A stretch of DNA of 64,000 nt from an uncultured Gammaproteobacteria bacterium (GTDB taxonomy: Bacteria; Pseudomonadota; Gammaproteobacteria; Arenicellales; Poriferihabitantaceae): assembly GCA_937992195.1 (NCBI GenBank), contig CALKKV010000043.1, positions 124,001 through 188,000 on the forward strand, in the 5' to 3' direction. The translations under genes were made by a program, and so were the position numbers. The notes beneath the pieces were generated by a model, which saw nothing but the letters and a program-made list of their open reading frames with translations, did no database searches and had not been told where the DNA came from. Of this stretch, positions 4,368 through 54,206 are shown piece by piece; position 1 is the stretch's first letter, and the number at the start of each line of letters is the position of its first letter.

Positions 4368-5572
4368 AATCCTTCTAGCGCGATTGCCATTCCCTGACCA
4401 ACGCCAACGCACATCGTTGCTAATGCATAGCGCCCTTTTCTCTCAGACAACAGTCTTGCAGCAACGCCGGTAATTCGGGCACCAGACATTCCCAATGGAT
4501 GACCGAGTGCAATCGCGCCGCCATATATATTCACGTTCTCGGCATTATCATTCAGACCTAATTCCCGCAGACACGCAAGGGACTGACTAGCGAAAGCTTC
4601 ATTGATCTCTATCACGTCGAAGTCTTGAATGCTAAGGCCCAACCGTTTACAGAGTTTCTCGGTCGCGGGGACAGGACCTATGCCCATAAGCTTTGGTGCC
4701 ACACCATAGCTGGCAGCACCAATCACCCGGGCAAGGGGGTGCAAACCGAAACGCTCACATGCCGACTGCGAAGCAATCAATACCGCTGCAGCACCATCAT
4801 TAACGCCACTGGCATTGCCTGCAGTGACCGTTCCATTGTCCCGAAACGGTGTTCCCAGACGCGACAATTTTTCTAACGAGGTATCGGCACGGGGATGTTC
4901 GTCAAGATCAATAATTACTGTAGATTTTGAGTTGGGTTTAACTTCTATTGGTATGATTTCACTAGAAAATTTATTTTCTTCTATCGCTGTTGTTACTTTA
5001 TGCTGAGAGTGAAAGGCAAATAGATCCTGATCTTCTCTACTCACTCCATAGGCTGCAGCAACATTCTCAGCCGTTTCTGGCATTGAGTCGACACCATATT
5101 GCTCACGCAATAGCGGGTTCACAAATCGCCAGCCGATTGTGGTGTCAAAAATTTCAGCGTTGCGAGCGAAGGGACTCGTTGCCTTGGGCATTACAAATGG
5201 CGCTCTCGACATACTCTCTACCCCCCCGGCAACCACAACATCTGCTTCCCCGAGACGCACTGCTCTGGCAGCAGACTGAATTGCATCCATACCGGAAGCA
5301 CACAAACGATTAATCGTCGCAGCGGGTACCGATTCTGGTAAGCCAGCAAGCAAGCTAGCCATCCGGGCGACATTGCGGTTGTCTTCACCTGCCTGATTCG
5401 CGCAGCCAAGAATCACGTCGTCTACGCTATCCCAAGCGACACTGGGATTTCTGGCTACCAGCGCCCTGAGAACATGGGCAGCCAGATCATCTGTACGCAC
5501 TGAAGACAGCGCACCGGCAAATCTGCCAATGGGCGTTCTAACATAATCACAAATATAAGCGTTGTGGGACAT
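4358..5572 (-). CDS. Acetyl-CoA acyltransferase, 3-oxoadipyl-CoA thiolase-like
   Basis: 404 residues with full thiolase chemistry: nucleophile Cys91 in NRLCASGMDA, the GHPLGMSGAR histidine loop and the second cysteine in ATMCVGVGQG. The N-terminus (ICDYVRTPIGRF.GALSSVRTDDLAAHVL) and CANQAGEDNRNVARM are typical of the PcaF/PaaJ group, which cleave 3-oxoadipyl-CoA to succinyl-CoA and acetyl-CoA in aromatic degradation. No other pca or paa gene is in the window, so a broader biosynthetic or beta-oxidation thiolase role is equally possible. Convergent with the DUF6164 gene. A 12-nt palindrome lies just upstream of its start. Confidence 0.85.
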   Translation of the reverse strand: MSHNAYICDYVRTPIGRFAGALSSVRTDDLAAHVLRALVARNPSVAWDSVDDVILGCANQAGEDNRNVARMASLLAGLPESVPAATINRLCASGMDAIQSAARAVRLGEADVVVAGGVESMSRAPFVMPKATSPFARNAEIFDTTIGWRFVNPLLREQYGVDSMPETAENVAAAYGVSREDQDLFAFHSQHKVTTAIEENKFSSEIIPIEVKPNSKSTVIIDLDEHPRADTSLEKLSRLGTPFRDNGTVTAGNASGVNDGAAAVLIASQSACERFGLHPLARVIGAASYGVAPKLMGIGPVPATEKLCKRLGLSIQDFDVIEINEAFASQSLACLRELGLNDNAENVNIYGGAIALGHPLGMSGARITGVAARLLSERKGRYALATMCVGVGQGMAIALEGLKT

Positions 5573-5605
5573 CTGCAGGAATTTTTTAAATCAGGTTATG
5601 GCACT

Positions 5606-5617
5606 TTGACTAGTCAA
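5606..5617. promoter_or_regulatory. Perfect 12-nt palindrome upstream of the thiolase
   Basis: TTGACTAGTCAA reads the same on both strands and lies 34 bp upstream of the thiolase ATG, between it and trmB. Position and symmetry suit a dimeric repressor, but no regulator can be named and a TTGAC half could also act as a -35 element. Confidence 0.3.
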
Positions 5618-5667
5618 CTGGAAACACGCGAACACATAACCAATCTAGTTGCATAAGCAGGAAACTA

Positions 5668-6369
5668 TCACACCTTTTGCATCAATATGTCCCAAACACC
5701 ATGGCCAAGTTTCAACCCGCGACGTTCAAACTTGGTTTCAGGACGCCATTCCGGACGTTCTGAAAAACCTCCCTCATACTTACAATTGTTAAAACCGGTA
5801 TGGTGTTCCAGTCGCTCCAGCGCCTGATAAGCATAATCTTCCCAATCAGTTGCAAAGTGAAATACACCACCTGACTTCATCTTCCGATGCAGTAACGCAA
5901 TAAAGTTTTCCGACAAGATACGGCGTTTGTGGTGTCTTTTCTTATGCCAAGGATCAGGAAAAAAAAGTTGAATTCGATCCAACGCGCCATCGCCTACAGA
6001 AGCATTGAGCACTTCAACCGCATCATGGTTAAAAACACGAACATTGGACAGTGCAAGCTCTTCAATTTTAATAAGTAAACTACCGACTCCCGGGGTATGC
6101 ACCTCAACACCAATAAAGTTTTGTTCGGGATGGTTAGCTGCCATTTGGGCAAGTGCATCGCCATCTCCAAATCCTATTTCCATCACGATGGGAGCTACTT
6201 GGGAAAACATCTGATTTAAGTCCGCACGCGGTTCATCCAGTGGTTCCAGTCCATAGATAGGCCATAACACCTCCATCGCACGAGTTTGACCTTTGGTCAT
6301 CCTACCCTCTCTCAACACATAGCTACGAATGGACCTTCTTTGCGCAGATTGTGGCGTATCAGGAGACAT
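5668..6369 (-). CDS. trmB: tRNA (guanine-N7)-methyltransferase
   Basis: SAM-dependent formation of m7G46 in tRNA. The 233 residues contain the SAM-binding VMEIGFGDGDALAQMA, the acidic strand end GVEVHTPGVG, and the family signature LFFPDPWHKKRHHKRR, with TDWEDYAY downstream. Length matches TrmB. A basic N-terminal stretch (RRSIRSYVLREGRMTKGQTRA) is normal for gammaproteobacterial forms. It is an isolated minus-strand gene between the two thiolases. Confidence 0.96.
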   Translation of the reverse strand: MSPDTPQSAQRRSIRSYVLREGRMTKGQTRAMEVLWPIYGLEPLDEPRADLNQMFSQVAPIVMEIGFGDGDALAQMAANHPEQNFIGVEVHTPGVGSLLIKIEELALSNVRVFNHDAVEVLNASVGDGALDRIQLFFPDPWHKKRHHKRRILSENFIALLHRKMKSGGVFHFATDWEDYAYQALERLEHHTGFNNCKYEGGFSERPEWRPETKFERRGLKLGHGVWDILMQKV

Positions 6370-43581: not shown

Positions 43582-43962
43582 TTAGTTGGTCTTAAAATAA
43601 TTTTTCAGGGCAGAAGTATAATCCTTTCCCTCCTCACGACACCACCCGCGAAATCCGCCTAACCCCCGGTTCTGCCATTCCGCATAGGCAGCTTGACGGG
43701 CATCTGAAATCGCATCAAATTGCATCTGATCATTGAGGTCATATTGCTGAATCAGCCGCTGCTTCTCTACTAAGAAACCTTTCACCGACAGCGGATCACT
43801 CAACCCACAATAGCCAAGCACCTCTCTTTTGTACTCTAGCTGTGTCAGCGCCTTGGCGCCTGCGTTAGCTTGATCGGCGAAGACGGAAAGGTTTAGGCAA
43901 CCCCCGAAGAAAGCTACCGCTAACCAAATTAAAGAAAGTCTATATTCGCGCAGCCGCTTCAC
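43582..43962 (-). CDS. Putative exported small protein
   Basis: 126 residues from a GTG at 43962 that overlaps the end of the MetE-like gene by 23 bp; the longer reading to 44034 lies further inside that gene. The N-terminus (VKRLREYRLSLIWLAVAFFGGCLNLSVFA) looks like a signal sequence, ending near VFA-DQ. The mature part has two cysteines (GYCGLS and GWCREEG) and the text FRGWCREEGKDYTSALKNYF. I recognise no family. The coupling to the MetE-like gene suggests it is part of the operon. Confidence 0.6.
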   Translation of the reverse strand: MKRLREYRLSLIWLAVAFFGGCLNLSVFADQANAGAKALTQLEYKREVLGYCGLSDPLSVKGFLVEKQRLIQQYDLNDQMQFDAISDARQAAYAEWQNRGLGGFRGWCREEGKDYTSALKNYFKTN

Positions 43963-44992
43963 ATAAGTTTCGGAGTTTTGCTTTCGCCAACTCCCTGTCC
44001 AGCAAACCAAGTCCACAGTCCGGCGCAGCGACAAGCCGATCTTTGTCGATATGCTGCACCGCAGAGTTCAATCTTTCCTCGATTTCATCCACTGTTTCAA
44101 TTCGGCTCTTGGCGATCGCCACTACACCAAATATCGCAGTGGTCGACTTTAGATGCTCAAGCAACTTCAGATCATTATGGCGATGGGCATCTTCAAAAGA
44201 TACTGCATCAATTGACGAGTCCTCTACCGCATCAACAATCTGCATGTATGCATCCTGATCGGCTTTAGGATAGTTGGGATGATCCAGTCGATCGGGATAG
44301 CCGCAGCACATATGTACCACCCGTTTGACATGCTGCGGGCAACCTTGAAACGCACGCTCAAGATTTTCAAACCCAAAATCCAGAGCGTCTTGTGGCTTGC
44401 GAGCAAACAACGGCTCATCGATTTGAATATATTGACATCCTGCTTCTGCTAGCGCCAGCACCTCCCTATTTAGCGCCATAGCAATGTCATGCCCTGCTTT
44501 TTTTGGGTCATTATAATAATCATCGCTATTGGTATCGAATACTGTCATCGGACCCGGCATCGTGATTTTTAGCGAATTCTCCGTAAACGATTGTGCCAAT
44601 TTCCAATCTTCAGAGAGAAACAGTTTTTTAACCGAGACTGGACCTCTTATGGTCGGCAGGTTCGCAGAGTAAGTACCACCACGCACCGGCTTATTGGTTA
44701 AATTTTCAAAGTCAAAACCATTAAGATGCCGACAGTGATAGTGAATATAGTTTTCCCTGACAATCTCACCATCGGTTGGAATATCAATACCGCATTCGAT
44801 TTGATCGGTAATCGCTTCCTCTATTCCCTGAGCAATAATAGCTTTTGCATTGGGCCCAAGCTCCTCCATCGCCTTCAACCATTGCTTGGTTGGATCGGCA
44901 GTGTCAGGACCTGCAGGAATATTAAACCAGTCAGGTAGTTTAACGTAAGCCGGTTTAGGATATGCACCGATGCAAGTTGTCTTTAATCCCAT
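43940..44992 (-). CDS. MetE C-terminal-like (cobalamin-independent) methyltransferase
   Basis: 350 residues, half the length of MetE, corresponding to its zinc-dependent barrel. The zinc ligands can be placed: His227 and Cys229 in VVHMCCGYP, Glu267 in SFEDAHRHND, Cys326 in APDCGLG. These bind and activate a thiol such as homocysteine. The N-terminal folate-binding half of MetE is missing, so the methyl donor may be something else. It lies 30 bp downstream of an ABC transporter permease with its own AGAGG, in the same operon, which points to an imported methylated compound as donor. That is inference; short MetE-like proteins with other donors are known. Confidence 0.85.
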   Translation of the reverse strand: MGLKTTCIGAYPKPAYVKLPDWFNIPAGPDTADPTKQWLKAMEELGPNAKAIIAQGIEEAITDQIECGIDIPTDGEIVRENYIHYHCRHLNGFDFENLTNKPVRGGTYSANLPTIRGPVSVKKLFLSEDWKLAQSFTENSLKITMPGPMTVFDTNSDDYYNDPKKAGHDIAMALNREVLALAEAGCQYIQIDEPLFARKPQDALDFGFENLERAFQGCPQHVKRVVHMCCGYPDRLDHPNYPKADQDAYMQIVDAVEDSSIDAVSFEDAHRHNDLKLLEHLKSTTAIFGVVAIAKSRIETVDEIEERLNSAVQHIDKDRLVAAPDCGLGLLDRELAKAKLRNLCEAAARI

Positions 44993-45022: not shown

Positions 45023-46378
45023 TTATTCAGTTGTACTTGGCGACAGGTTTCCAGAGGAAAAAATACCGTTAAAATTCTCGGTTCCTGTGCGTGCCCCATC
45101 CTCAGATTTTTCGTTATTTTCTACTTCTGATCCAGGTTGCAAGTTACCGCCATTAAATATTCCGTTAAAATTCTCTGTGCCAGTTCGAGGCTGCGTCGCA
45201 CTGTCAGACTCACTTGCCTGTGGCAAAAGATTATCGCCATCAAAAATACTGTTAAAGTTTTCCGTTCCCGTACGATTCGCTTTTTCCTGCTTTTGCGTTT
45301 CAGCTTCCTCGGCGGCAGCCGCTTTCTTCGCAGCAGTTCGTTCCTGCAGGGCTTGAATACGTTTCGCGGTTTCAGCTTGCTTTTGTTCTTTCACCAATAC
45401 TTTACATTCTCCTACGCCGACCGTGCCGGCAAAAAACGCGGTACCTAAACCAGCTATAAAAACCAGCAAAATACAAATAATCGCTGGATCAATAAACCAT
45501 TTTGTCTGTACTTTCTTTTCCTTAATCAGACCTGCAGCTACCATTCCGGCTTGCTCTGCTTCCGCCTGCTCACGGCGCTTCAGTACCTCATGAATTGCTG
45601 CACCGAACACGGTCAACACAACAATCACAACCGCCAGCGCACTAATGGAGGGATCAATACCATAGCGCACCTTGCTGGCAAGTACGGTGGTTAAAGTGCT
45701 GGTTGAAATAGAGGTGAAGACCGTTGTATTGTAGTTTTCAAACGATGCCAAGAATGCGAGCACAGCAGCCGAGGCGATTGCTGGCTTTAAAAACGGTAAT
45801 AAGATTTTACGAAATGCCTGTACATGGGTAGCGCCTAAATCCAGCGCAGCCTCTTCCTGAGCAGAATCAAAACGCTGCAACCTGGAAATAAAAACCAGCA
45901 TGGTATAGGCCGCAATAAATGTAGACTGGCCAATTATAGTCAGAAAAAATCCGTTATAGAAAATAGAATCTCGACTTGCACCAAACATTACGCCAATGCG
46001 GTCCCAAAATAACAGGGTTGAAATACCAAGCACCACGCCAGGCACAAGAATTGGAGAGATCACGATAGTGTAGTACCAGGGTCTCACTCTTTGTTTAACC
46101 TGCGTGAGCATCAATGCACCAGCCAAACCCAAAGGAACTGCGAAAAGCACAACGCCAAAACCGATTAAGAAACTGTTCTTCAATCCTTCTAGCAAACGAC
46201 TGTCATTAGCGAGAACATCAAACCATTCCACCGTAAAACATTCCCAAGGTGTCACCCTGGGAAATGCCGAACTGTTGAAAGCGGTAAGACCCATAATAAT
46301 TAATGGGCCAAACAGATAGAGAAAGAAGCCTAAGACAAAAAACAGTACGAAAAACTGACGAACTCGATCCGAAGTCAT
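45023..46378 (-). CDS. ABC transporter permease (PotC-like) with extra helix and repeat tail
   Basis: 451 residues; PotC proteins usually have about 265-285. Residues 1-275 are the normal six-helix permease with the cytoplasmic EAA-type loop EEAALDLGATHVQAFRKILLP. After it comes a charged linker, a seventh hydrophobic helix (about 298-320), an Ala/Lys/Glu/Gln-rich coiled region (about 328-367), and three copies of RTGTENFN(S/G)IF at 369, 398 and 430, separated by acidic and Pro/Ser spacers. If the core has the usual topology the tail faces the periplasm. Overlaps the upstream permease by 4 bp. The tail is unlike any permease extension I know. Confidence 0.88.
   Translation of the reverse strand: MTSDRVRQFFVLFFVLGFFLYLFGPLIIMGLTAFNSSAFPRVTPWECFTVEWFDVLANDSRLLEGLKNSFLIGFGVVLFAVPLGLAGALMLTQVKQRVRPWYYTIVISPILVPGVVLGISTLLFWDRIGVMFGASRDSIFYNGFFLTIIGQSTFIAAYTMLVFISRLQRFDSAQEEAALDLGATHVQAFRKILLPFLKPAIASAAVLAFLASFENYNTTVFTSISTSTLTTVLASKVRYGIDPSISALAVVIVVLTVFGAAIHEVLKRREQAEAEQAGMVAAGLIKEKKVQTKWFIDPAIICILLVFIAGLGTAFFAGTVGVGECKVLVKEQKQAETAKRIQALQERTAAKKAAAAEEAETQKQEKANRTGTENFNSIFDGDNLLPQASESDSATQPRTGTENFNGIFNGGNLQPGSEVENNEKSEDGARTGTENFNGIFSSGNLSPSTTE
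45059..45274 (-). repeat. Three tandem copies of an 11-residue coding repeat
   Basis: The C-terminus of the permease encodes RTGTENFN-S/G-IF three times (45242-45274, 45155-45187, 45059-45091), spaced 87 and 96 bp. On the plus strand each copy starts with a form of GTTAAA(A/G)TT. Codon differences between copies suggest old duplication held by selection on protein, not recent slippage. Confidence 0.85.
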
Positions 46379-47298
46379 CGCGCAATTTCTCCCAGACGTA
46401 CTTTAAAGATCCGCATCATCAACAACACAAACACAATGCAGGCTATCAACAAGACCAGCGCATATGCTGAGCCTCTCGCCCAGTTAGCAGAATTGTTAAA
46501 CCACTTATAAACAAGCTGGGTAAACCATAAGCTACTGGGCCCACCCAGGATTTGCGGTGCGGCAAGCGCCCCAGCGGTCAGCATAAAAACCATGGTGCAT
46601 CCTGAGGTGATTCCGGGTTTTGCATGGGGAATCACAATCCGCCAGTGAATTCGCCACCAGGGAGAACCTAGATCTCTCGCCGCTTCAATTTGATTCTTAT
46701 CCAGACTCTCAATGGCGTTATAAATTGGAAAAATCATTAACAAAATATAGGCGTAACACAGTCCAGAATAGAGCGCGACATTCTCGCGAATAAAATCATA
46801 GGGCTGATCAAGAATGCCTATACCAACGAGAACATTGTTAACCACACCAGAGGCACCAAACATCACCTTGAACGAAAAGGCCCGAAGCAGTTCATTTACC
46901 CAAAACGGCACAATCAGTGACATCACCATCAAACGCCCCCAGCCGCCTTTGGCAACATGGGCAAGATAGTAAGCAACCGGATAACAAAGGCAAACATCAA
47001 TCAGTGTGACAAACACCGAAGCAAGGATAGTACGGCCGAATACCCCTAAATCGATATAATTAAAGGCATCGGTAGAGTTAACGTTGCCGTAGATCAGATA
47101 TTGATAATGCTCGAAGGTATAGACATGGCTATCGGTTCCCCATTGCGGTGGCGGAACATTTGCGCGAAAAGAAAAATCGAGCATATAGAGCTGCGGTAAC
47201 ACAATCATCACCAGCATCCATATTGCTACCGACAAAAGTAAAAATAGCCCAAGTGTAAGACCGTTTTTCCTGAAGTAATCTGACCAGAACTGAAACAT
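46375..47298 (-). CDS. ABC transporter permease (PotB-like)
   Basis: 307 residues with six to seven membrane helices and a long periplasmic N-terminal loop (WGTDSHVYTFEHYQYL). The cytoplasmic loop DKNQIEAARDLGSPWWRIHWRIVIPHAKPG is the EAA motif that docks on the ATPase. PotB-type pattern: PFWVNELLRAFSFKVMFG. Pairs with the downstream permease (4-bp overlap) to form the membrane channel. Confidence 0.92.
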   Translation of the reverse strand: MFQFWSDYFRKNGLTLGLFLLLSVAIWMLVMIVLPQLYMLDFSFRANVPPPQWGTDSHVYTFEHYQYLIYGNVNSTDAFNYIDLGVFGRTILASVFVTLIDVCLCYPVAYYLAHVAKGGWGRLMVMSLIVPFWVNELLRAFSFKVMFGASGVVNNVLVGIGILDQPYDFIRENVALYSGLCYAYILLMIFPIYNAIESLDKNQIEAARDLGSPWWRIHWRIVIPHAKPGITSGCTMVFMLTAGALAAPQILGGPSSLWFTQLVYKWFNNSANWARGSAYALVLLIACIVFVLLMMRIFKVRLGEIAR

Positions 47299-47316: not shown

Positions 47317-48423
47317 TTATTCTGCTGCCATTGGTCCTTGCGGCAAGGCTACCGCCAGATCAGAACCACAGCCAACCTGCACCCGACTACCAACCTCATA
47401 TCCCACTGAGTGTCCGTCATTCACCATCGATAACGTTACGATTCTCGCACTGCCATCGACCCGTAAATAAACCTGCCAAAAATTGCCTTCAAACTCTTGC
47501 CGCTCTACAACTCCGGATAGGACGTTATCCAACTCCTGCTGTTGAGAAAAGCGTAGCGATTCCGGTCGAATAAAAACGTAAGCTTCATCACCTACTGACA
47601 GCTGCTCCTTATCGTTACGCGAAACAGCGCGCGCGGCAAGCACCCCAGAAGGGGTGTCAACAACAGCCAACCCATTGTTTAGCTCACGAACCGTTCCGGC
47701 AAAATAATTGTTTTCACCGACAAAAGAGGCGACGAATGCAGTTTCAGGTGAATCGTAAATTTGATTACCCCCAGCAACTTGCTCAATCACACCTTGACTC
47801 ATCACCGCGACATTATCTGACATGGTTAATGCTTCTCCCTGGTCATGAGTGATATAGATAAAAGTGATGCCAACACGTTCCTGAATTGCTCTCAACTCCG
47901 TTCTCATATGTTGACGCAGTTTAAGATCAAGCGCGGATAGTGGCTCGTCTAGCAACAAAACATCTGGCTCGGCAGCCAAAGCTCTGGCAATAGCCACTCG
48001 CTGCTTTTGACCACCGGACAATTCATTCACCATCTTGTCGCCCTGGCCCGGGAGAGCGATTAAATCCAATAGCTCATCAGCGCGCTTACGCCGAGCGGCT
48101 TTGCTCATCCCCTTTACTTCCAGTGCAAAGGCAATGTTTTCCCACACGGTCATCAATGGAAATAAAGCAAGATTCTGGAAAATCAATGCCGTAGGTCGCT
48201 TGTTTGGACCAATCCCAGACATGTTTTTTCCACCAATCAGCACCTCTCCCTGAGATGGGGAAAGAAACCCGGACACTGCTCGCAGCAGTGTTGTTTTTCC
48301 GCATCCTGATGGACCAAGAAAACTAAAAAACTCGCCGTCTTTGATATGGATGTTGACATCCCGTGCAGCGACAAAGTCGCCAAAGCGAATCCACACATCT
48401 TGTAGTTGAACATCAGCGCTCAT
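47317..48423 (-). CDS. ABC transporter ATP-binding protein (PotA-like)
   Basis: 368 residues: Walker A GPSGCGKTT, signature LSGGQKQRVAIARAL, Walker B VLLLDEPLSALD, and H-loop ITHDQ, then a C-terminal TOBE domain (about 245-360) as in PotA/MalK importers. It sits 18 bp upstream of the first permease. The substrate-binding gene is further upstream, separated by a terminator-like hairpin that would raise binding-protein dosage. Confidence 0.93.
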   Translation of the reverse strand: MSADVQLQDVWIRFGDFVAARDVNIHIKDGEFFSFLGPSGCGKTTLLRAVSGFLSPSQGEVLIGGKNMSGIGPNKRPTALIFQNLALFPLMTVWENIAFALEVKGMSKAARRKRADELLDLIALPGQGDKMVNELSGGQKQRVAIARALAAEPDVLLLDEPLSALDLKLRQHMRTELRAIQERVGITFIYITHDQGEALTMSDNVAVMSQGVIEQVAGGNQIYDSPETAFVASFVGENNYFAGTVRELNNGLAVVDTPSGVLAARAVSRNDKEQLSVGDEAYVFIRPESLRFSQQQELDNVLSGVVERQEFEGNFWQVYLRVDGSARIVTLSMVNDGHSVGYEVGSRVQVGCGSDLAVALPQGPMAAE

Positions 48424-48634: not shown

Positions 48635-49771
48635 CTATGCGGCCTGAAATTTGTTTTCAAATTCAGTTCTTACATCTGCATACCACTGCGGTTCAGCAGG
48701 CCAAGGATTCAGATTTGCCAGGGCATCGCCAGGATAGGCCTCTGCAAAGTTCTTCTTGTAGTTATCACCCGAGAACGCATCTGCGCCAAGCACTGCAGAG
48801 TTATAACCATGTGAATCAATAGCGACGCCAGCTGGCTCCGCCTCGTAGCAAAACTTCACAAACTCATAAGCTTGTTCGGTGTTTGCAGCAGCAGCCGAAA
48901 GTGACATTCCGTCAACCCAAGCCATCGCGCCTTCTTTTGGCGCTTGGTAGGTCACAGGCTCACCGGCGGTTTTTAACGCAAGCGGCGGCCCATCCCATGT
49001 TTGCCCAACGATAACACCATCATTTAACAATCCGTTTTTCTGGGTATCCGCATCATTCCAGGTCAGCTTTAGATTAGACTTGTTTTTTATACAGAACGCT
49101 AGAATTTGATCCCACACCTTACGCATGGCCGCTTCATCTTTATAGGCGGCCCAAACTGAACCCGGCTCCATTTGACCAGATGCTTCCATGTGTAAACCGG
49201 CGCCCAACATACCTGAATGCACACGCATCATAGTTTTGCCGGCATTTTCAGGATTCCACACATCACCATAACTTGGAACACCACCTTCAGGTACGAACAA
49301 GTCGGTTCTCCAACCAATTCCTTCTGTTCCCCAAATATGCGGTAACCAGTGAGAGCCCTTATCAGCAAAATTCCACTCGGCACCGCCAACTTTCAACATC
49401 GAAGGATTGGCATTTTCAATATTAGAAATCGCGTCGTAATCCCAAGGCTGTAATAATTCCAGATCGGCCCACTGCCCGGAACGGTTATTGGTCGGAGAAC
49501 AAATATCAAAGCCTGCTCCCTTTGAAGCTTTCATCTGGTTGATGATTTCTTCATTTGAGCCGATCCCCGTATAGTTCAGCTTGATACCTGTTTTTTCCTC
49601 AAAGGAAGCAATCCAGGGCTCTGGCAGATAATCAGACCACATTAAGACATTTAATTCGCCTGAAGACGCCAGGACTTTCGAGCTGACCACCCAAGGTCCA
49701 ACTACCGCTGCGGCAGCAGTTCCTTTAACGAACGTGCGCCGACTAAGAGATGATTGTGATTCTTTTTTCAT
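48635..49771 (-). CDS. Periplasmic substrate-binding protein, PotD/PotF-like, Tat-exported
   Basis: 378 residues from ATG at 49771, six bases after a strong GAGGAGG; a longer start at 49819 lacks this. A Tat-type leader is visible: SRRTFVKG at 10-17, followed by a hydrophobic stretch ending near VLASSG. The mature domain begins ELNVLMWSDYLPEPWIASFEEKTGIKLNY, the type-II polyamine-binding fold (PF13416-like). Bacterial relatives bind polyamines, but others bind amino-acid or betaine-like cations, and I cannot see diagnostic pocket residues. Divergent from a MocR regulator. Confidence 0.9.
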   Translation of the reverse strand: MKKESQSSLSRRTFVKGTAAAAVVGPWVVSSKVLASSGELNVLMWSDYLPEPWIASFEEKTGIKLNYTGIGSNEEIINQMKASKGAGFDICSPTNNRSGQWADLELLQPWDYDAISNIENANPSMLKVGGAEWNFADKGSHWLPHIWGTEGIGWRTDLFVPEGGVPSYGDVWNPENAGKTMMRVHSGMLGAGLHMEASGQMEPGSVWAAYKDEAAMRKVWDQILAFCIKNKSNLKLTWNDADTQKNGLLNDGVIVGQTWDGPPLALKTAGEPVTYQAPKEGAMAWVDGMSLSAAAANTEQAYEFVKFCYEAEPAGVAIDSHGYNSAVLGADAFSGDNYKKNFAEAYPGDALANLNPWPAEPQWYADVRTEFENKFQAA

Positions 49772-49829
49772 TTTTTCCTCCTCGTGGGAAATTTCAAGAA
49801 GCTGAACAATAGGCTTCATTTATTGCATA

Positions 49830-49978: not shown

Positions 49979-51466
49979 GTGACTGAAATTAACGAGTATC
50001 TTCGATTGACTGAATATCTTTTCCAATTACCTGATCACCAGAGAGGCACACTGCAAACCCGGATACAGGAAATGCTGGTGAATTCGATATTGGATGGCCA
50101 TGTTGACCTTGCAACACCGCTGCCTTCGAGCCGCAAATTAGCCAAGCAGCTGTCAGTAGCAAGAAATACTGTGGTCTATGCGTATCAGCATTTGGTAGAC
50201 GAAGGTTTTCTTCTTTCAAAGGAAAGAAGTGGGTTTTTTGTTAACCCGGATATTCTTAAAGGACGGATTCAACAGGAAAAGAAAAAACCGACTTCGGGAA
50301 AGCAAGTTTCCTGGGAAGATAAACTAGTGGTGATGCCGGGACAGCTGCGGCAAAACAGCAAGCCAGCAAACTGGAGTAAATACCCCTATCCTTTTATCTG
50401 CGGTCAATATGATCAGCAATTATTCCCAATCTCTGATTGGCGCGAGTGTTGTCGCGAAGCAGCAGCCATCAATGCAATTCATGACTGGGCAAAAGATCAA
50501 ATTGATCGCGACAATCCTGAACTGATCGATCAAATTCATAAAAAACTGTTACCCCGCAGAGGCGTATGGGCTGAACCCGATGAAGTGCTGGTGACGCTTG
50601 GCGCACAACAAGGCATATATTTAGCGGCTCAATTGTTACTCAACCAGAACCGCACAATGGGTTTTGAGTCACCTGGGTATGTAGATGCTGAAAATGCTTT
50701 TGGAATTTTTACTGAAAAACTGCAAGGGCTAAATATCGATACCGAAGGCTTGATACCCGACGAAAGTTTCAGTCGCTGTGATTGTGTTTACACTACGCCA
50801 AGCCATCACTACCCAACCACTGTCACTATGCCACGGTCACGTCGACGGGAGTTACTTGAGTCTGCAAGAGAACACGATGTTGTGGTAATTGAAGACGACT
50901 ATGAGTCAGAATTTAATTATGTCGGCTCCCCTACCCCGGCCCTAAAAAGTCTTGATGAAGACGGCAGAGTGATCTATATAGGCAGTCTCTCCAAGACCTT
51001 GGCACCGGGTATACGTCTGGGATATATGGTTGCTCCCAAAGTGTTTATCCAACAGGCGAGAGCCTTGCGCAGGTTGATGATGCGTCATCCACCAAGCAAC
51101 AATCAGTACATCATCGCGCAGTTTCTAAGTCGCGGTTATCACGACGCGTTGATAAATCGCTTAAGTCAAACCCTGCATAAACGATGGGTGTTACTGGGTG
51201 ATTTACTAGATACACATTTTCCAGGTGGTAGTCGACGCCCTACCTTCGGCGGGTCAGCAGTATGGGTGGAAGGACCCAATAAATTGAATGCCCATGAACT
51301 ACTGGAAAAGGCCAAACAAGAAGGGATTTTATTTGAACCAGGTTCCGTATTCTTTCACGGAGATGATAAACCTCAGCATTTTTTTAGACTGGGGTTTTCC
51401 TCCATACCAACGGACCATATCGAACCAGGAATCGATAAACTTGTTGCTCTAATGAAGAACGCTTAA
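49979..51466 (+). CDS. MocR-family transcriptional regulator (GntR wHTH fused to aminotransferase-like domain)
   Basis: 495 residues from a GTG. The N-terminal winged helix (about 18-90) has LPSSRKLAKQLSVARNTVVYAYQHLVDEGFL, and the aminotransferase fold follows from about 130, with the PLP lysine in IGSLSKTLAPGIRLGYMV and the DDYESEFNY aspartate. MocR proteins sense PLP with an amino compound and act on a neighbouring operon. It is divergent from the ABC transporter binding protein, so that transport operon is its most likely target. Confidence 0.93.
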   Translation: MTEINEYLRLTEYLFQLPDHQRGTLQTRIQEMLVNSILDGHVDLATPLPSSRKLAKQLSVARNTVVYAYQHLVDEGFLLSKERSGFFVNPDILKGRIQQEKKKPTSGKQVSWEDKLVVMPGQLRQNSKPANWSKYPYPFICGQYDQQLFPISDWRECCREAAAINAIHDWAKDQIDRDNPELIDQIHKKLLPRRGVWAEPDEVLVTLGAQQGIYLAAQLLLNQNRTMGFESPGYVDAENAFGIFTEKLQGLNIDTEGLIPDESFSRCDCVYTTPSHHYPTTVTMPRSRRRELLESAREHDVVVIEDDYESEFNYVGSPTPALKSLDEDGRVIYIGSLSKTLAPGIRLGYMVAPKVFIQQARALRRLMMRHPPSNNQYIIAQFLSRGYHDALINRLSQTLHKRWVLLGDLLDTHFPGGSRRPTFGGSAVWVEGPNKLNAHELLEKAKQEGILFEPGSVFFHGDDKPQHFFRLGFSSIPTDHIEPGIDKLVALMKNA

Positions 51467-51746: not shown

Positions 51747-54206
51747 TTATGTTCGCATTCGCTCTCCCTTTGGATCATACATAGCGCGAAGGCTTGCTTT
51801 CGCCGGGATTGCAACGCCACCCACCTCAATTGCCATTGGTTCAGCTGTGAGGTACTCAGCGGTCACTCCCTCTTCAGCGTAGACATAGCCTAAACCAACG
51901 GCGCCACCGAGCGTATGACCATAGTTACCAGAAGTCAGATGCCCCACCATCTTACCCCCTCTTAATATCGGCTCATGGTGATACAACACAACTTCCGGAT
52001 CTTGTAACAGGAATTGTACCAAACGCTTTCCTTTCCAGGAGCCTGTCTCTTTTTGTTCTGCAATCGCATCATGGCCTATGAAAGGAATCTTCTTATTCAT
52101 ATCGCAGACAAACGAAAGACCACACTCCAATGGCGTATCTTCATCACCAATATCATGTCCTAAGTGCACAAATTTTTTCTCAATCCGGCATGAATCCAGT
52201 GCGTGCATTCCCGCCATCTTCAAATGCTCTTCTCCTGCGCTCTGCAACAAGTAGTCAAAACCATGTCGCGCTTGGTCGACGGGCACATACAGTTCCCAAC
52301 CGAGCTCTCCAACGTATGACACGCGTCCAGCACGCCCTACCGCACATCCTAGCTCAATATCTTTCACACTGCCAAACGGGAAAGCTTCTGTAGAAAAGTC
52401 AGTATCAATGGCCTTTGATAATACACTTTTGCTGTTCGGTCCCATTACACCGAGAACGGCCCATGCATTAGTAACATCATTGACAATACAATTCGCACCT
52501 TCGGGTATATGCCGTTGCAGCCAATTCATATCTTTACCCGATACAGCAGCACCACTGATTATGAAATATTCATTCTCAGAGATGCGAGTAACCGTTAGAT
52601 CAGCTTCAATTCCACCGAGTTTGTTTAACCAGTGGGTATAAACCATCTTGCCAGCAGACACATCAATGTTCGCGCTGCAAACCCGCTGTAATACTTTACA
52701 AGCATCGCTTCCCTGAACGGTGTATTTTGAGAACGAACTTTGATCAAACATGACAACGCCTTCTCTGGCAGCAGTGTGTTCTGCCGCAGAATGTGCAAAC
52801 CAGTTTTGTTTACCAAACGAATATTCGTATCTCGGTTCAACGCCCTTCGGTGCAAACCAGTTTGGTCGCTCCCACCCTGCCGCTTCGCCAAAACAAGCAC
52901 CCCTTGCTTCTAATCTTTCATGCACAGGGGAGTGACGCACGTTTCTCGAGGTCTCCATTTGCCTGTAAGGGTAATGATTGTCGTATAGCAAACCAAGTGT
53001 TTCAGTGACACGCTCTTGCAAGTACTTTTGTGTACCTTGGAAAGGCTGCATTCGACGAATATCATTGCCCCATAAATCTAATGGAGGATGATCGTTTGTC
53101 ATCCACTCCGCTAGCGCTTTTCCAAGACCACCAGCACTTTGAATACCAACAGAGTTTAACCCTGCCGCAACAAAATAATTCTTAACCTCCGGTGCTTCTC
53201 CAATATGAAACTGATCATCCGGGGTAAAACTTTCCGGCCCACAAAAAAACTTTCTCCAACCCGTTTCTTGCAACATCGGTACGCGTTGCATTGCATCCTC
53301 AAGCACAGGCATTAATTGCTCTTCCATATGCCCTTCCAACTCGTCGAAGGAGAAATCTTTAGGAATGCCGTTCTGACCCCATGCTACTGCTTTTTTCTCG
53401 AATGCTCCTACCAATAAACTACCGGCATCTTGTTTATAGTAAGCACATCGATCGTGGTCTCGCAGTACCGGCAGATCATCGGGTAGATCGGTGAGTTTCT
53501 CTGTTACCGCATAGTAGTGCTCACAGGCATGCAGCGGAATATTTACTCCCGATTTCTTACCAAGTTTTCTCGCCCACATGCCGCCACAATTCACAACATA
53601 ATCTGTTTGGATATCACCATGATCCGTGATGACGCCAACAACTTTCCCGTTTTCTATCAAAACATCTTCAACCGTGACGCCTTCTATACACTGTGCACCC
53701 TCTTTTCTTGCACCTTTGACAAAGGCCATGGTGACATCGACCGGACTGGCAAATCCATCATGGGGAACGTAACTGGCGCCCAGGAGATCATCGGTTTTAA
53801 GAAACGGATAGATTTCTTTGGCTTGACCAGGAGTGAGCATATCGACCTGGGTAATCCCAAAGGCGTTGTTCATCGACGCAACTCGTTTCAATTCTTCAAA
53901 ACGCGCCTCGCTGTGCGCAATAGACAGTGAACCAACTTGGCGAAAGCCTGTTGATTGGCCAGTCTCTTCCTCAAGTTGGCGAAGAATAGACATCGAGTAC
54001 TCAGCCATCTTGGCATGATTCTCATTCGCGCGCATCGTACCGATTAGACCAGCAGCGTGCCAGGTCGTACCACAGCTGAACTGGCTTCTCTCCAGCTGTA
54101 CCACATCGCTCCAGCCCAATTTCGCAAGATGATAGGCAACACTAGAGCCTGTGACTCCACCCCCAATAACAACAACACTGGCTTTGCCAGGTAACGCTAC
54201 GTTCAT
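51747..54206 (-). CDS. Dimethylglycine/sarcosine dehydrogenase-like flavoprotein (FAD oxidase + GcvT)
   Basis: 819 residues. The N-terminal FAD domain begins VVVIGGGVTGSSVAYHLAKLG and has His50 in GTTWHAAGL, the place where FAD is covalently bound in mitochondrial dimethylglycine and sarcosine dehydrogenases. After about 430 comes the aminomethyltransferase (GcvT) fold: GVVMFDQSSFSKYTVQGSDACKVLQRV, then the C-terminal barrel. It should oxidise an N-methyl group and pass the one-carbon unit to tetrahydrofolate. Dimethylglycine and sarcosine are both possible. The start has AGGAA seven bases upstream. Confidence 0.9.
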   Translation of the reverse strand: MNVALPGKASVVVIGGGVTGSSVAYHLAKLGWSDVVQLERSQFSCGTTWHAAGLIGTMRANENHAKMAEYSMSILRQLEEETGQSTGFRQVGSLSIAHSEARFEELKRVASMNNAFGITQVDMLTPGQAKEIYPFLKTDDLLGASYVPHDGFASPVDVTMAFVKGARKEGAQCIEGVTVEDVLIENGKVVGVITDHGDIQTDYVVNCGGMWARKLGKKSGVNIPLHACEHYYAVTEKLTDLPDDLPVLRDHDRCAYYKQDAGSLLVGAFEKKAVAWGQNGIPKDFSFDELEGHMEEQLMPVLEDAMQRVPMLQETGWRKFFCGPESFTPDDQFHIGEAPEVKNYFVAAGLNSVGIQSAGGLGKALAEWMTNDHPPLDLWGNDIRRMQPFQGTQKYLQERVTETLGLLYDNHYPYRQMETSRNVRHSPVHERLEARGACFGEAAGWERPNWFAPKGVEPRYEYSFGKQNWFAHSAAEHTAAREGVVMFDQSSFSKYTVQGSDACKVLQRVCSANIDVSAGKMVYTHWLNKLGGIEADLTVTRISENEYFIISGAAVSGKDMNWLQRHIPEGANCIVNDVTNAWAVLGVMGPNSKSVLSKAIDTDFSTEAFPFGSVKDIELGCAVGRAGRVSYVGELGWELYVPVDQARHGFDYLLQSAGEEHLKMAGMHALDSCRIEKKFVHLGHDIGDEDTPLECGLSFVCDMNKKIPFIGHDAIAEQKETGSWKGKRLVQFLLQDPEVVLYHHEPILRGGKMVGHLTSGNYGHTLGGAVGLGYVYAEEGVTAEYLTAEPMAIEVGGVAIPAKASLRAMYDPKGERMRT

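Follow-up and report, generated by a model that had tools for sequence, protein, structure and literature searches.

A PotC-type permease with a conserved C-terminal tail, predicted to form a periplasmic arm with repeated motifs

Our analysis showed that the window (the whole stretch of DNA analysed, 64,000 nt) encodes an ABC permease with a PotC-like core and a C-terminal tail whose architecture is real, conserved and undescribed within the literature searched. This architecture is conserved across 78 non-redundant proteins, and both its anatomy and its periplasmic exposure are well supported. A literature search for the motif or the tail, with most subscription journals outside its scope, returned nothing, in agreement with the statement in a preliminary description of this DNA that no transporter tail of this kind is known. 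The best overall explanation, which we favour tentatively, is a PotABCD-type importer with a periplasmic arm that may capture its own substrate-binding protein (SBP).

The permease and its C-terminal addition

The permease gene lies on the minus strand at 45023..46378, stop codon included, and encodes 451 aa from an ATG start. The open reading frame of the preliminary description is real, but the end assigned to it, 45059, falls inside the third repeat and truncates it, the conserved unit lying at 45044-45091. Residues 1-275 (45554..46378, minus strand) form the six-TM PotC-like core, as had been proposed; this is borne out by a match to BPD_transp_1 (Pfam) on residues 81-269, at 57.3 bits against a curated cut-off of 26.4, and by E. 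coli PotC (8y5f_C) as the closest solved chain in both sequence and structure searches, the latter, run with the permease model, returning only ordinary permeases. The Pfam match, together with an operon that includes a PotA-type ATPase, a PotB-type permease and a PotD/F-type binding protein, places the protein among the PotC-type (type I) ABC importer permeases. At the same time, it reaches 117.6 bits against NF007047, the NCBIfam spermidine/putrescine PotC equivalog, where the cut-off is 326, and is on these grounds best regarded as related to PotC without being PotC itself. The present system is like the E. coli PotD-PotABC spermidine importer (8y5f, 8y5h, 8y5i; PMC11414716) in core fold and sequence, and in combining a single PotB and a single PotC with two PotA and a PotD-type binding protein that is a separate component. 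E. coli PotC differs in that it has six TM helices, carries a glycine in place of Cys47 and lacks a tail.

The addition beyond the core comprises 176 residues, with one hydrophobic helix, one charged helix and RTGTENFN in three exact copies. The AF2 model places a seventh membrane helix (TM7) at residues 298-319 (45422..45487, minus strand), in accord with hydropathy across relatives, and a charged helical stalk at residues 322-368 (45275..45415, minus strand), so that the extra membrane helix and charged coil of the preliminary description both stand. In this model, built on a 77-sequence alignment, block means of pLDDT are 92-97 over stalk residues 331-360, and disorder is predicted past residue ~370, apart from a four-residue helix inside the first repeat. 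The arrangement is seen again in a divergent alphaproteobacterial member, whose model, built from fewer aligned sequences and less confident, has a helix at 295-315, which matches TM7, a second at 318-351, and then disorder. No Pfam domain scored above its cut-off in the tail.

Distribution, the cysteine pair and topology

Relatives and genome-contig searches yielded 110 loci, partly overlapping, most of which show the same tail plan. The tailed homologues (78 non-redundant) come mainly from gamma- and alphaproteobacteria, the latter including Roseibium, Celeribacter, Allorhizobium, Jiella and Marivibrio, and a few contigs of the tailed type are labelled SAR324 or Marinimicrobia. Alphaproteobacterial plasmids provide further examples (Leisingera, Paroceanicella, Ruegeria), annotated just as 'ABC transporter permease'. 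Twelve tailless relatives, 277-301 residues long, share about 61-65% identity with the core; frameshifted or contig-cut copies (L026, L060, L031, L032) were not counted as tailless. Close relatives carry the motif, and its absence from them, which the preliminary description had named as grounds for rejecting its proposal, was not observed. On a tree of PotC cores, tail presence maps to one change, on a branch with support 100/99, and on an SBP tree made by a quick method the tailed systems fall on one side of a branch with SH-aLRT 99. The tail was apparently gained once, to judge from these trees, and with a single origin the link of the tail with Cys47 and with the SBP residues described below is largely one evolutionary event.

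A feature of the tailed proteins that the preliminary description had missed is a pair of cysteines. Cys47 (codon 46238..46240, minus strand) lies in periplasmic loop 1 (WECFTVEWF), between TM1 and TM2, at the position of the Gly in E. coli PotC WQGF; Cys325 (GECK; codon 45404..45406, minus strand) directly follows TM7 and is its predicted disulfide partner. The two occur together in 76 of the 77 evaluable non-redundant tailed proteins, L030 being outside this count as N-terminally incomplete, and 44 of the 78 contain two cysteines and no more. Neither is present in the remaining one, L029 (1468-2763), a tailed PotC relative with V47 and A325 in their place; it would represent the sole second change in the pairing of tail and cysteines, and its position on the tree is weakly supported. 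In 25 tailless relatives position 47 is G in 24 cases and E in one. The same pattern emerged from a core-only query, blind to the tail, against 399 Pseudomonadota genomes: all five additional tailed proteins that it found had both cysteines, while none of 13 tailless ones had C47.

The simplest reading of these counts is a Cys47-Cys325 disulfide, predicted to pin the tail to the periplasmic face. Since such a bond requires loop 1 and the tail to lie together in the periplasm, the pair supports a periplasmic tail, and the earlier suggestion that the repeats face the periplasm gains evidence beyond topology rules. The contrary case considered there, a tail of disordered filler in the cytoplasm, conflicts with the cysteine pair and with the conservation of the motif. 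Judging from sequence, the tail is very probably a periplasmic arm with a predicted disulfide anchor. Two other bonding partners were considered. A disulfide between tail and SBP was ruled out, as several alphaproteobacterial SBPs are free of cysteine in systems whose PotC tail keeps its own; a disulfide to PotB is disfavoured, as the common cysteines of PotB are about equally frequent in tailless systems. Cys47 and the tail together make a clean marker for a subfamily whose present annotation is simply that of a generic permease.

The repeated unit and its occurrence

The three repeats, each with an exact copy of RTGTENFN, are RTGTENFNSIFDGDNL (residues 369-384; 45227..45274), RTGTENFNGIFNGGNL (residues 398-413; 45140..45187) and RTGTENFNGIFSSGNL (residues 430-445; 45044..45091), all on the minus strand, with the 5' ends of the RTGTENFN copies at 45274, 45187 and 45091. 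The preliminary description had reported three copies of RTGTENFN(S/G)IF, which are indeed present, but its frame was off: the conserved unit runs past IF to N-L, and RTGTEN is specific to a lineage. Across the family the unit reads [FY]-x-x-[IVA]-F-[ASDN]-P-x-N-L, or [FY]xx[IVA]FxPxNL in short form, and RTGTENF, GTEGY, AGRQY and NPSPF are lineage variants of its lead-in. A loose pattern found 157 copies, usually two or three per tailed protein, of which 156 have the F and 155 the closing L, while N is kept in 130 and P in 124, and F/Y stands three before I in 146; because the pattern itself required F/W and L/I, the informative figures are those for N, P and the F/Y three before I. Under a strict motif pattern, 8 of the 78 tailed proteins have no matching copy.

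Over 11 residues the repeat copies of the window permease vary at one residue, while synonymous differences are found at 7 of the 11 codons, so the repeats are old and selected at the protein level. A recent DNA duplication or mobile element as their source was ruled out by these synonymous differences and by the lack of other genomic copies: with 2 DNA mismatches allowed, no RTGTENFN copy beyond these three was found in the window's own genome (a reversed control pattern gave 0). Among seven close orthologues, pairwise identity is 77% in the repeat units, 21% in the linkers and 88% in the core.

We could not extend the motif convincingly to other proteins. The tail profile matched this permease and no other protein in its own genome, and across 399 genomes it found, at E below 1e-12, five other tailed permeases in addition to this one. 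The only other matches in these genomes were six weak ones (L205-L210; E 4e-4 to 7e-3), which probably reflect coil or low-complexity likeness. In 109 genomes of the order, IFAPxNL occurred, at the loci examined, in PotC tails or at isolated, mostly non-coding spots, and the motif matches outside PotC (L115, L125, L152, L169) either lacked a credible open reading frame or were isolated. The idea that the repeats could serve as a tag for sorting or docking, carried by further envelope proteins too, did not hold, convincing matches to motif and tail profile being limited to this permease family; a general sorting or anchoring tag was ruled out, as the motif was not found at the C-termini of other proteins of the window's genome. 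Since the profile is convincing in this permease family only, among 399 genomes, the partner of the tail is probably a dedicated one. The motif itself is probably a protein-binding site.

Operon, binding protein and possible function of the arm

The operon has the order SBP-PotA-PotB-PotC. Upstream of the permease on the minus strand are the PotB-type permease partner (46375..47298), the PotA-type ATPase (47317..48423) and the PotD/PotF-type SBP (48635..49819), the proposed partner of the arm, which carries a twin-arginine leader (SRRTFVKG) that is also seen on most of its relatives. A divergent MocR-type regulator (GntR and aminotransferase; 49979..51466, plus strand) often adjoins tailed operons, and a MetE-C-like protein (Meth_synt_2; 43940..44992, minus strand) lies downstream in most gammaproteobacterial ones. 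We compared 71 tailed with 25 tailless systems and counted as tail-diagnostic any column with one residue in at least 90% of tailed proteins and the same residue in at most 15% of tailless ones; this gave 20 columns in the SBP, none in PotA, one in PotB and five in the PotC core. The excess in the SBP makes a multivalent arm for this protein the best guess.

At the same time, L093, a tailless Rhodospirillales system (PotC at 5043-5927) whose SBP is sister to all tailed SBPs, matches the tailed type at 12 of the 20 diagnostic residues, so the SBP differences may stem from a change of substrate. L093 can be seen as an intermediate, of use in parting tail-linked from substrate-linked changes, and the eight columns at which its SBP has no match (162, 196, 252, 271, 334, 337, 354 and 389) are better candidates for tail-linked change; of these, column 337 is two residues from the ligand-site residue Y339 (= PotD Y293).

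The following mechanism could account for these observations. In the anatomy, which is well supported, TM7 takes the C-terminus across the membrane, and the predicted Cys47-Cys325 disulfide fixes the base of the arm beside the importer's periplasmic mouth. A helix of ~47 residues, ~70 Angstrom long if straight, rises off the membrane, and ~80 disordered, mostly acidic residues present usually two or three copies of [FY]xx[IVA]FxPxNL. These copies may be weak, repeated docking points for the soluble SBP of the same system, which, kept by the mouth, would reach a higher local concentration there, in a non-covalent counterpart of fused binding domains. Capture of the SBP is the leading mechanism, since this permease is alone in carrying the motif and, among the products of the operon, the SBP is the soluble one in the periplasm; E. 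coli PotD docks onto the periplasmic surfaces of PotB and PotC (PMC11414716). Among the partners suggested in the preliminary description (the wall, another partner or the binding protein), the binding protein is the best supported, through co-variation only, and we regard the cognate SBP as a plausible partner, if somewhat short of a probable one.

Alternatively, the arm could act in cis, as a regulatory or structural element held by the disulfide, its motifs folding onto periplasmic loops of PotB and PotC to gate the mouth or steady a conformation; the loop 1 anchor sets the arm next to the mouth, and the five diagnostic columns of the PotC core and the one of PotB (D83) would fit. We consider this unlikely, as two or three near-identical spaced sites suit capture of a mobile partner better than a single cis site does, and PotA and PotB are almost alike in tailed and tailless systems. 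The PotB column, residue 83, is Asp in 99% of tailed systems and His in 23 of 24 tailless ones. Another possibility is that the arm binds a target outside the operon (cell wall, outer-membrane porin or other envelope protein) and so sites the importer near the point of substrate entry. The named hosts are Gram-negative, and a stalk and disordered arm such as those modelled could extend far into the periplasm, but the motif is convincingly on no other protein and a search of the operons, limited to relatives of the window's own genes, found no outer partner gene, which makes an outside target quite unlikely. Improbable, too, is an acidic tail that gathers cationic or amine substrate by the mouth with low specificity: polyamines are the cargo of related importers, and the disordered part has a median net charge of -8 among tailed proteins and a net charge of -11 in the window permease, but this charge ranges from -20 to +2, FxPxNL is the conserved part, and the SBP lacks two of PotD's acidic polyamine residues. 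Functionless, neutral low-complexity filler is disfavoured and hardly credible, as, for all the fast-evolving linkers and predicted disorder, TM7, the motif and the cysteine pair are retained over two classes, and the repeat codons diverged synonymously while the protein hardly did.

An SBP that has to find its importer in the crowded periplasm is usually viewed as diffusing freely unless the receptor is fused or lipid-anchored; OpuA is an importer with the binding domain fused to the permease. In GlnPQ, tandem binding domains are joined to the TM domain (PMC8025302). Should the arm recruit the SBP, the present system would resemble GlnPQ and OpuA in keeping a receptor near the mouth, but it differs in that its binding protein is encoded by a gene of its own and that short motifs would provide a non-covalent link; the modelled tail, made of TM7, helix and disorder, has no folded substrate-binding domain, and the permease is not a member of this group. 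The Mycoplasma MMSYN1_0195 fusion (NF043073) also combines a PotC-like permease with a C-terminal addition, and the core scores 80 bits against its cut-off of 1250; there the addition is a binding protein, according to the family name, whereas TM7, stalk and disordered repeats make up the one described here. A disulfide-stapled stalk whose several short linear motifs catch free SBP by avidity, with no need for receptor fusion or a lipid anchor, is possible though somewhat doubtful in this full form. If true, a disulfide-pinned arm of repeated motifs in one importer lineage would be a third arrangement, besides diffusion and the fused or lipid-anchored receptor.

As to the substrate, PotD E36 and D257 correspond to D63 and D303 of the SBP, while H201 stands at the position of PotD D168 and nothing aligns with E171, so that two of the four acidic residues of a polyamine importer are missing. 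The SBP retains the aromatic ligand residues, and tailed SBPs show no variation at R199 and H201. With two PotD acidic residues gone and PotC far below the equivalog cut-off, the label 'spermidine/putrescine' is unsafe. A methylamine catabolic cluster is found near the importer, its TMA/TMAO genes ~8-12 kb from the SBP gene: a trimethylamine monooxygenase (NF058570; 57777-59114) and a TMAO demethylase (NF053776; 59359-61719), both on the minus strand and above curated cut-offs. Their proximity makes a methylated amine substrate conceivable, as a lead only. A DAO and GCV_T protein (51747-54206) is encoded near the methylamine genes.
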